41,599 nucleotides of DNA from Deltaproteobacteria bacterium (lineage in GTDB: Bacteria; Desulfobacterota; Syntrophia; Syntrophales; UBA5619): the NCBI GenBank assembly GCA_021372415.1, contig JAJFUM010000179.1, forward strand, positions 1 to 41,599, in the 5' to 3' direction. The number at the start of each line of letters is the position of its first letter. Position 1 is the stretch's first letter. The notes beneath the pieces are model-generated. The model ran no database searches and was not told where the DNA came from. It saw nothing but the letters and a program-made list of their open reading frames with translations. Both the position numbers and the translations under genes were made by a program. Shown one piece after another: positions 33,683-38,095 of the stretch.

Positions 33683-34231
33683 ATGCGGGATTTGGTTCCG
33701 AGCAAGATCTTCTTCACCAAGGGCGTCGGCACCCACAAGGACGAGCTCCACTCTTTCGAACGGGCACTCAGGGATGCAGGGATAGAGAAGTGCAACCTCG
33801 TCCAGGTTTCCAGCATCTTCCCTCCGGGCTGCCGGATGATCTCCAAGACCCAGGGGCTCAAGAAACTGGTACCGGGGGGCATCACCTTCTGCGTGCTGAG
33901 CCGCTGCTGCAGCAACGAACCCAAACGTCTGTTGGCCGCATCGGTCGGATGCGCGATTCCGGCCGATCATGCCTCCTACGGTTATATCAGCGAACACCAC
34001 TCCTTCGGCCAGACCGAAAAACAGGCGGGAGACTACGCGGAAGACATGGCCGCGGCCATGCTGGCCTCGACGCTGGGAATCGATTTCAATGTGGATGAAA
34101 GTTGGGACGAAAAAAAGGAGATCTTCAAGATCAGCGGCAAGATCGTTATGACCCGGAACGTCACCCAATCGACGATCGTGAAAAACAGCGGATACACCAC
34201 GGTCATTGCCGCAGCGGTCTTCCTGTTCTAG
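33683..34231 (+). CDS. pdaD: Pyruvoyl-dependent arginine decarboxylase
   Basis: Makes agmatine and CO2 from arginine, the first step of an agmatine route to putrescine. It is 182 residues, as in archaeal and chlamydial PvlArgDC. The proenzyme self-cleaves at a Ser-Ser pair: VSSIFPPG with Ser43-Ser44, where Ser44 becomes the pyruvoyl group. The surrounding [33 protein letters not shown] and [16 protein letters not shown] segments are typical. The start is the ATG at 33683, two bases after the previous stop. No agmatinase or agmatine deiminase is in the window. A small hairpin (GCCGG/CCGGC) separates it from the nitroreductase gene. Confidence 0.93.
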
Positions 34232-34932: not shown

Positions 34933-35826
34933 ATGGTGAGCGAAACGACCGGCCATAAACCGCAAATGGGCAGACAGAATATCGGGGATGCCGAGCTCCC
35001 CTACCTGCTCTATGAAGGGGAAGGGCCTCCCCTGATCCTCCTTCACGCCACGGGATTCCAGCCCTGGCTGTGGCACCCCATTGCCAGAAAACTCGCCCGG
35101 CACTACCGTATCTTTGCCCCCGACTTCTGCAACCATCGCGAATCCGATCCGGAGAAGGGGGGGCTTGGCTGGACCATCCTGGCCGAAGACGTCGACCGTT
35201 TCTGTCGAGCCCTGAACCTGAAGAAACCCTTCCTGGTGGGGCACTCCATGGGGGGCACGGTCCTGATGGTCGCCCATGCACTCTACGGTCTGCCCGCATC
35301 GGGCATGGTCCTCATCGAACCGATCCTCCTTCCTCCCGAAATCTACCGGACACGAATCCGCGTCGATCAGCACCCCTTCGCCGCCAAGGCAATCAAGCGG
35401 ACGAACTTCTGGCGGGACGAGCAGGAGGCTTTGGCGTACCTCCACTCCCGCGCACTCTTCCGGGAATGGGATGCCGAAATGCTGGAGCTCTATATCCGCC
35501 ACGGCATGACCGGTGGGGAAGGCGGGCTTCAGCTTGCATGCAGCCCACGGCGCGAAGCGTCCCTCTTCATGGGGGGACTACAATACGATCCCTGGCCGCT
35601 GCTGGCAAAGATTTCCTGTCCTGTTTGCCTCCTGGAAGGTCAGAAGAGCGAGAACGGGGCCTTCATCGATTTCGACAAGATCCACTCGCTCATCCCGGAT
35701 TGCCGTCGCAGTGTGGTGAAAGACGCAGGGCATCTGATTCCCATGGAGCGCCCCGGCGAGGTCGCCCACATCATCGAAGATTTTTTCCACCCGCTGAGGT
35801 CGCGCCGAGAGAGGGAGGCGGCATAG
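34933..35826 (+). CDS. Alpha/beta-fold hydrolase
   Basis: A 297-residue serine hydrolase. The oxyanion loop LLHATGF lies near residue 40, the nucleophile elbow GHSMGG has Ser105, and the catalytic His267 is in DAGHLIPMERP. A cap domain occupies about residues 130-215. The acid residue is not certain. The family covers esterases, lipases, C-C hydrolases and haloperoxidases, so the substrate is open. The start ATG abuts the TGA of the nitroreductase, which implies translational coupling. The tail RSRREREAA is polar. The 218 bases after it hold no gene but do hold a strong hairpin. Confidence 0.9.
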   Translation: MVSETTGHKPQMGRQNIGDAELPYLLYEGEGPPLILLHATGFQPWLWHPIARKLARHYRIFAPDFCNHRESDPEKGGLGWTILAEDVDRFCRALNLKKPFLVGHSMGGTVLMVAHALYGLPASGMVLIEPILLPPEIYRTRIRVDQHPFAAKAIKRTNFWRDEQEALAYLHSRALFREWDAEMLELYIRHGMTGGEGGLQLACSPRREASLFMGGLQYDPWPLLAKISCPVCLLEGQKSENGAFIDFDKIHSLIPDCRRSVVKDAGHLIPMERPGEVAHIIEDFFHPLRSRREREAA

Positions 35827-35979
35827 TGGAGGAGAAAGCTAAAGGATTGGCTGAAACGAGCCGATGAAAGGATGGGCCAGAATAAACCGGATGCCAAGGA
35901 GTTGAAAACCCGATTGCCCTGAAACGGGGATGGGGGCCGTGGAATCCCGCGGACCTCGATTCCCCGTGATGGATTACGC

Positions 35980-36016
35980 GATTTCTCCTGCAGGGCGATC
36001 CCTGCAGGGAGAAATC
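35980..36016 (+). promoter_or_regulatory. Strong stem-loop in the leader of the histone-like gene
   Basis: GATTTCTCCTGCAGGG (35980-35995) pairs with CCCTGCAGGGAGAAATC (36000-36016) over 16 bp with a single bulged G and the loop CGAT. No T-run follows. It ends 28 bases before the ATG of the histone-like gene and 12 bases or so before its ribosome-binding site. It may stabilise the mRNA or control translation. Confidence 0.55.
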
Positions 36017-36044
36017 GACTTTGAAGCAAAGGGAGGAAACATTT

Positions 36045-36377
36045 ATGGCAAAGGCAAAGAAGGGTGATTCACTGAATTGTGAGGTGTGCGGTCTGGTGAC
36101 GGTCGTCGACAAGGCGTGCGGCTGCGCCGATACGGCGGAAGTCATCTGCTGCGGAAAGCCCATGGTCGTCAAGAAGAAGGTGGCCAAGAAGGCGGCTAAG
36201 AAACCGGCCAAGAAGGCTGTGAAGAAGGCCAAACCAGCCGCCAAGAAACCGGCCAAGAAGGCCAAGCCGGCCGCCAAGAAGCCGGCCAAGAAGGCCAAAC
36301 CGGCTGCCAAGAAGCCGGCCAAGAAGGCCGTGAAGAAGGCCAAACCGGCCGCCAAGAAGCCGGCGCCGAAGAAGTAA
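36045..36377 (+). CDS. Desulforedoxin-like domain fused to a histone-H1-like Lys/Ala/Pro tail
   Basis: A 110-residue two-part protein. Residues 1-43 hold a compact Cys motif: CEVCG (Cys12, Cys15), ACGCAD (Cys25, Cys27) and ICCGKPM (Cys35, Cys36). The CxxCG...CCGxPM pattern is that of desulforedoxin and the N-terminal iron domain of desulfoferrodoxin. From residue 44 on, the chain is almost only Lys, Ala, Pro and Val in KPAAKKPAKKA repeats, like eukaryotic H1 tails, AlgP or chlamydial Hc2. The ATG at 36045 has GGGAGG upstream. The tail should be disordered and bind DNA or RNA; the head should bind Fe or Zn. Function is not known to me; nucleoid binding that responds to metal or redox state is inference. 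Confidence 0.8.
   Translation: MAKAKKGDSLNCEVCGLVTVVDKACGCADTAEVICCGKPMVVKKKVAKKAAKKPAKKAVKKAKPAAKKPAKKAKPAAKKPAKKAKPAAKKPAKKAVKKAKPAAKKPAPKK
36231..36374 (+). repeat. Tandem 33-bp coding repeats (11-residue KPAAKKPAKKA unit)
   Basis: Three adjacent 33-bp units (36231-36263, 36264-36296, 36297-36329), a 12-bp spacer encoding VKKA, and a fourth unit (36342-36374) whose end is altered to APKK. The units differ mainly at third codon positions. The number of repeats is likely to vary between strains. Confidence 0.85.
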
Positions 36378-36488: not shown

Positions 36489-36686
36489 ATGGGGGCGATG
36501 AACTCGGCCGGAATGAGGAATACCGTGCCTGAAGGGTATACAACGGCTGAAAACCGGTGGTGCGAAAAACACGGTTACTTCATCGATGTGGATGCCTGCC
36601 GGGCGAGGGCCCTCCAGAAGCGCTCCTGCGGGATCTGCCTCGCCCGCTGGCGGCAATTGCCCCTCCCCTTCCCGGAGCCCCTTTAG
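36489..36686 (+). CDS. Small Cys-rich protein, possible zinc-binding
   Basis: A 65-residue ORF (or 62 from the ATG at 36498). After a polar start it reads RWCEKHGYFIDVDACRARA, then SCGICLARW. Four cysteines and one His, spaced Cx3H...C...CxxC, suggest a small zinc site. I do not recognise the family. Support for it being real is the ordered Cys pattern, an AGGTGA stretch upstream and a hairpin (36690-36714) placed four bases after its stop. It follows the histone-like gene by 111 bases on the same strand and could share its transcript. Confidence 0.55.
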   Translation: MGAMNSAGMRNTVPEGYTTAENRWCEKHGYFIDVDACRARALQKRSCGICLARWRQLPLPFPEPL

Positions 36687-37780: not shown

Positions 37781-38095
37781 ATGTTTTCCGTATCTGAAAA
37801 GGCTAGTGAGATGATTAAGGAATTCCTTAAGAATCGCACGGAATCCCCCTCCATCAGGGTACTGATGCAGGAGGGTGGCTGATCGGGGCCCTCACTGGGC
37901 ATGGCTCTGGATGAGTCAAAACAGAACGACGAGATTTTCGAGGACCGGGGGATCACCTACCTGGTCGAAAAGGACCTCTTTGAAAAGGTCAAACCCATCG
38001 AAATCGATTTTATCACCACGCCACGGGGGTCGGGGTTCAAGCTGACCTCAAGTCTGAAGCAGGAAAGCGCCTGCGGCTCCTCCTGCAGTTGCTGA
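37781..38095 (+). CDS. HesB/IscA-family selenoprotein (in-frame TGA = selenocysteine)
   Basis: A HesB/IscA-like Fe-S carrier, 104 residues if the TGA at 37880-37882 is read as selenocysteine. The N-terminal part (SVSEKASEMIKEFLKN, then IRVLMQEGG) runs in one frame straight into SGPSLGMALDESKQND. The break falls exactly at the first conserved Cys of the family (GGCSG becomes GGUSG, Sec34). The C-terminus has GSGFKLTSS and Cys-rich ACGSSCSC, corresponding to the usual CxC ligands. AAGGAG precedes the ATG. A SECIS-like stem-loop follows the TGA, and a terminator follows the stop. Without recoding, the gene would wrongly be called from an ATG at 37901. Alternatives (pseudogene, sequencing error) are much less likely. 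Confidence 0.9.
37891..37915 (+). promoter_or_regulatory. Bacterial SECIS-like stem-loop
   Basis: CTCA (37891-37894) pairs with TGAG (37912-37915), and GGGC (37897-37900) with GCTC (37904-37907, one wobble). The apical loop ATG starts 19 bases after the TGA, inside the 16-37 base window usual for bSECIS elements that recruit SelB. It lies within the coding sequence. Confidence 0.6.

Follow-up and report, generated by a model that had tools for sequence, protein, structure and literature searches.

The window, a stretch of 41,599 nucleotides of contig JAJFUM010000179.1 from a bacterium of the order Syntrophales, holds a small gene that joins a cysteine-containing head to a purely basic tail. 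The features at this locus are the following.

34933 to 35826, + strand: alpha/beta hydrolase gene, a recurrent upstream neighbour (Pfam Abhydrolase_6, E=2.2e-21)
35979 to 36017, + strand: leader hairpin of about 17 base pairs, interrupted by one bulge and closed by a loop of 4 bases, ending 27 nt ahead of the ATG
36045 to 36377, + strand: desulforedoxin-headed, H1-tailed (Dx-H1) gene, stop included, an open reading frame of 110 amino acids with relatives of the same build
36045 to 36173, + strand: head, residues 1-43, desulforedoxin-like domain by profile and fold match
36174 to 36374, + strand: tail, residues 44-110, K/A/P/V only, with 33-bp repeats and a net charge of +32 by count
36489 to 36686, + strand: small Cys-rich gene of 65 amino acids with four Cys, an unnamed conserved family found in 52 of the order's 155 genomes

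The Dx-H1 open reading frame is served by the ribosome-binding-like site GGGAGG, starts with ATG and ends with TAA, and its product divides into the 43-residue head and the 67-residue tail. Translation and residue count bear out the preliminary description of this DNA, made from its letters, in which a head with CEVCG and ICCGKPM had been seen joined to a tail of Lys, Ala, Pro and Val. A frameshift or assembly artefact as the origin of the tail, which that description had considered, is excluded by some 90 relatives that share the same in-frame build.

Assignment of the head depends on whether the single sequence or the family is consulted. The window sequence alone scores 13.2 bits against Pfam Desulfoferrod_N (PF06397), below the gathering score of 23, and its head alone matches PDB desulforedoxin at E=0.018. 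A profile of 22 sequences, on the other hand, finds desulforedoxin 1cfw as its best match in the PDB (E=2.1e-5), with desulfoferrodoxins at about 0.01, and PF06397 is matched by 20 of 21 family members at E<=0.1 (best 4.2e-7), with a member from the same genus as the window (L001) showing no Pfam match at this threshold. Of nine relatives for which bit scores were compared, L008 passes the Pfam cut-off (23.7 bits) and L001 has no match; the family is thus borderline for the model and is therefore named desulforedoxin-like. Structure prediction, with 38 aligned heads as input, gave a head model with a mean pLDDT of 81.5, for which the top six Foldseek matches in the PDB are all desulforedoxin or superoxide reductase (probability 0.94-1.00), including 1dxg with probability 1.00 and a TM score of 0.84 on the target. 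The Foldseek E-values are weak because the domain is tiny, the best being 0.05 and not significant alone; a second structure aligner places the model on 1dxg with Z 5.5 and an rmsd of 1.0 over 35 residues at 40% identity. The predicted head fold is consequently that of desulforedoxin, so that the desulforedoxin head of the preliminary description stands by family profile and predicted fold and falls short of the Pfam cut-off as a single sequence.

Within the 38 aligned heads, two desulfoferrodoxins included, Cys12, Cys15, Cys35 and Cys36 are invariant, and these four putative ligands suggest that the head would bind Fe or Zn. An additional pair, Cys25/Cys27 (CxC), is common and not invariant, being present in 79 of 96 members of the order. 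With desulforedoxin of Desulfovibrio gigas (PDB 1dxg/1cfw) the head shares the CxxCG ... CC..M pattern and the fold; desulforedoxin itself is armless with 36 residues, whereas Dx-H1 has a slightly longer loop, often with CxC, and carries the basic arm. Equally, desulfoferrodoxin (class I superoxide reductase) has the desulforedoxin domain (PF06397) at its N-terminus, followed by a reductase domain that Dx-H1 lacks: the superoxide reductase C-terminal domain is absent, the K/A/P/V tail fills the rest of the protein, and the TIGR00320 score is 10.5 bits against a cut-off of 146.9. True desulfoferrodoxins are separate proteins in the genomes of L042, L044 and L045. Desulforedoxin is a dimer, and to our knowledge its stand-alone role has long been unclear.

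The tail consists of 32 K, 22 A, 10 P and 3 V and nothing else, a composition that supports the histone-H1-like character proposed for it and suggests that it would bind nucleic acid. Across the window's six reading frames the longest K/A/P/V run has 70 residues and the second longest 10. TRF finds a period of 33 bp with 3.7 copies and 88% matches at 36207-36329, and in three repeat units compared 12 of 16 pairwise differences fall on codon position 3, a bias expected for a translated frame. The full-length structure model leaves the tail structureless with low confidence (mean pLDDT 62.4), and a search for a tail paralogue elsewhere in the genome returned just two matches, both of them weak (E 0.66 and 7.9) and interrupted by stop codons. 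As a long, low-complexity basic tail of Lys, Ala and Pro the arm belongs to the AlgP/Hc type. Chlamydial Hc1/Hc2 and the tail of mycobacterial HupB are alike in being basic low-complexity arms and differ in that these proteins have no cysteine metal head, the head of HupB being an HU domain. The window protein has no match to chlamydial Hc2 (PF07382) at E<=0.1, and among 21 members L024 alone has one, at E=0.031 and with 14.8 bits where the cut-off is 40. AlgP (AlgR3) and PhaF of Pseudomonas likewise possess a C-terminal domain of Lys/Ala/Pro repeats, and DNA binding has been reported for their KPAA-type tails (PMC9239181). The description of AlgP given there, a predicted helical head of 124 residues with a repeat region of 154 residues, mentions no desulforedoxin-like head (PMC9239181).

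The head profile was searched against 155 genomes of the order, one genome per species. At E<=0.001 it matched in 102 genomes, and 96 strong matches (E<=3.2e-11) came from 90 of the 155, so that the architecture singled out in the preliminary description recurs across the order; the counts given here omit 32 weaker matches in the order with E between 1.2e-7 and 9.9e-4. Five weak loci were inspected, of which L042, L044 and L045 are desulfoferrodoxins and L041 and L043 stand-alone desulforedoxin-like proteins of 34-36 residues. All 96 strong matches were inspected as well, and the CxxC and CC ligand pairs occur in 96 of 96, with a basic C-terminal tail in nearly all. These tails (n=96) have a median length of 57.5 residues and a median net charge of +23, complete ones ranging from +9 to +36; four are incomplete owing to contig ends or Ns, and that of L039 is less H1-like (K/R/A/P/V 52%). 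Such drift in tail sequence at constant composition would be typical of an electrostatic arm. No strong match was found in 65 of the 155 genomes, including 16 of 20 family-mates of the window, and the protein is therefore not essential there.

A census of the phylum, with 395 genomes and a threshold of E<=1e-6, gave 42 genomes with a match, 10 of them from the order, and 32 of 33 matches outside the order were inspected, the one in genome G184 being left out. In these 32 the K-rich arm is N-terminal in 26, C-terminal in five and missing in one, and all five C-terminal arms belong to a single family (f38). Most N-terminal arms have 13-22 residues, which is weaker than a classical H1 tail, with up to 72 in L179. 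The head hence stays with a basic arm, the side of which varies between lineages, and a pairing that is conserved while the arm is free to switch ends argues that both parts work together. This result, which takes the finding beyond what had been described from the window, is the most telling one of the analysis. It also bears on the suggestion that nothing functional is present and that slippage expanded a low-complexity tail behind a desulforedoxin gene, as the 33-bp repeats might indicate: nearly all relatives, from many families, retain basic arms, which differ in sequence and sit at either end, and this arm census largely refutes such an origin, which we consider hardly credible. A scan reaching beyond the phylum, over the whole genome collection, returned, among the matches listed, close relatives only. 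Phages and plasmids contained no tblastn match of the head, speaking against an origin from either; in a scan of viral contigs 0 of 53 pattern matches were confirmed, with no PHROG match.

Upstream of the coding sequence, the strong leader hairpin pointed out in the preliminary description was confirmed, with a fold z of -4.98 against dinucleotide shuffles. The region is significantly stable in two of six leaders, that of the window and that of L004 (z -3.27), the remaining four leaders of near relatives having z from -1.77 to +0.68. Stems lie at the same place in three of the five nearest relatives (L001, L004, L009); they are imperfect and show pair-keeping changes, which hints at a conserved leader element. 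A leader RNA conserved across the family is unsupported, as folds differ between families by eye and two of six genus leaders are significantly stable. With up to 3 mismatches allowed, the genome contains no further copy of the hairpin, and an interpretation of it as a repeat element was rejected; no Rfam model comes close to its gathering score here, and neither a terminator nor a sigma-70-like promoter was found at the hairpin on the + strand.

A strong hairpin in front of the gene, matched in position by stems in three of five relatives, would suit a Zn-ribbon-like protein associated with RNA or the ribosome, the arm of which binds rRNA or mRNA and possibly its own leader, and ribosomes commonly carry small, basic proteins of the Cys4 type. 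Significant stability in two of six leaders, the lack of a common hairpin in other families (by eye) and a patchy presence, which counts against a core ribosomal role, make this distinctly unlikely.

The Dx-H1 gene of the window follows a nitroreductase gene and the alpha/beta hydrolase gene, and among 27 loci compared 10 have a hydrolase ahead of Dx-H1; these 10 represent at least five families, and in nine of them the hydrolase gene ends within 400 bp. Downstream, the Cys-rich small gene noted in the preliminary description proved to be conserved in the order with the pattern WC...DAC...CxxC...QxPLPF; it gave 53 matches in 52 of the 155 genomes, and 26 of the matches are no more than 1.5 kb away from a Dx-H1 gene. 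Fourteen of these 52 genomes have no strong Dx-H1 match, and the link is therefore partial. Its product is matched by no Pfam model at E<=1 and by no PHROG, and none of its NCBIfam scores comes close to a cut-off. That it might be a selenoprotein was rejected on examination of eight regions, one of them (L194) a doubtful match, as TGA is the terminal stop behind PLPF in seven clear members. No neighbour is common to all Dx-H1 carriers in the loci compared and N-armed loci have neighbours that differ from those of the order; assigning a function from gene neighbours was rejected, as the hydrolase and the Cys-rich small gene are recurrent in only part of the order. In one family the N-armed genes (L080, L081, L086, L089, L090, L094, L095) precede a flavoprotein-like gene with a GxGLAG motif (by eye).

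By eye, a rubrerythrin-like gene precedes the N-armed gene in two of the 18 loci listed, L080 and L089. This neighbourhood would fit an electron-transfer or iron-buffer protein tethered to DNA by its arm, which handles superoxide or free iron beside the chromosome, all the more as the domain, by profile and fold, is the Fe(Cys)4 module of desulforedoxin and desulfoferrodoxin and the genome of the window has no desulfoferrodoxin above the Pfam cut-off. With so rare a rubrerythrin-like neighbour, and with desulfoferrodoxin proper present besides the Dx-H1 protein in the genomes of L042, L044 and L045, we regard such a role as quite improbable. The recurrent hydrolase, on the other hand, recalls AlgP and PhaF, the tails of which are alike in composition and which are reported to organise polyphosphate or PHA granules (PMC9239181). 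A granule-organising protein with an arm that bridges granule and nucleoid is nevertheless very improbable, the head being unlike the helical head of AlgP and the hydrolase reaching 37.8 bits against a PHA depolymerase model with a cut-off of 300.

Taken together, Dx-H1 is probably a real, nucleic-acid-binding kind of protein that is undescribed in the literature searched. The preferred reading, to which we give a probability of about 0.5, is a small nucleic-acid-binding protein in which a Cys4 metal-binding, probably dimeric head is coupled to a polycationic arm and which would bridge or compact DNA beside HU. The CxxC and CC pairs would hold one Fe or Zn ion, and the head would probably make the protein a dimer by analogy with desulforedoxin. 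The disordered, purely basic H1-like arm, with up to +36 charges, would neutralise and bridge a polyanion, most likely chromosomal DNA, and with two arms per dimer the protein might bridge or compact the nucleoid. As target, DNA is the initial guess because tails of such make-up bind DNA in AlgP and PhaF; the case is weakened in that no direct sign favours DNA over RNA or polyphosphate. The genome has five matches to the HU/IHF family, so the Dx-H1 protein would be an accessory and not the sole packer.

A nucleoid protein built on such a metal site can be imagined to respond to its surroundings, as the preliminary description had surmised. If the Fe(Cys)4 centre were lost or oxidised, dimerisation or exposure of the tail would change, and hence the packing of DNA with the supply of oxygen or metal; the desulforedoxin-type site, the CxC pair that could form disulfides in 79 of 96 order members and the carriers' descent from lineages of anaerobes are in line with this. 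As a candidate redox pair, CxC is absent from 17 of the 96 members and therefore cannot be the common mechanism or a required switch; a Zn-filled site would be redox-silent, and in the order no regulator or oxidative-stress gene turned up as a regular neighbour, all of which makes a redox- or metal-responsive chromatin protein unlikely. The broadest version, a phylum-wide family of chromatin proteins of anaerobes on a desulforedoxin-type metal site, with an N- or C-terminal arm and with DNA packing gated by the metal occupancy or the oxidation of Cys4 (with CxC), is put forward as a tentative and rather unlikely proposal. If DNA binding were indeed metal- or redox-dependent, a new link in anaerobes from oxygen and metal state to chromosome structure would emerge.

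Both halves of the protein are of known kinds, and it is the recurrent pairing of head and arm that the literature searched does not describe. A search of the open-licence literature found no published description of a desulforedoxin-type (or rubredoxin) head with a histone-H1-like arm, which is consistent with the preliminary description, where such a build could be placed in no described system. A desulforedoxin domain commonly fused to a polycationic arm poses the direct question whether the Fe(Cys)4 module acts on nucleic acid.

Several minor observations were made on copies of the gene and on other genes of the window. Stand-alone desulforedoxin-like proteins of 34-36 residues or slightly longer occur alongside the H1-tailed form in the genomes of L041 (G055) and L043 (G039). 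Four genomes of one family (G122-G125) carry an additional Dx-H1 copy (L172-L175) that has diverged and is short-tailed, and these copies have an extra Cys before the CC pair, like the N-armed heads. At L003, bases just upstream of 5001 resemble the end of another K/A/P tail, and a tandem second copy may exist. Within the window, a pyruvoyl-dependent arginine decarboxylase gene lies at 33683-34231 on the + strand (PvlArgDC, E=8.4e-61), and 37781-38095 on the same strand probably encodes a selenoprotein: its product is an Fe-S protein of IscA/HesB-like type, the frame contains an internal TGA (GGC TGA TCG), and the translation with TGA read as U matches Fe-S_biosyn at E=3.8e-5 and 24.3 bits against a cut-off of 26.3.
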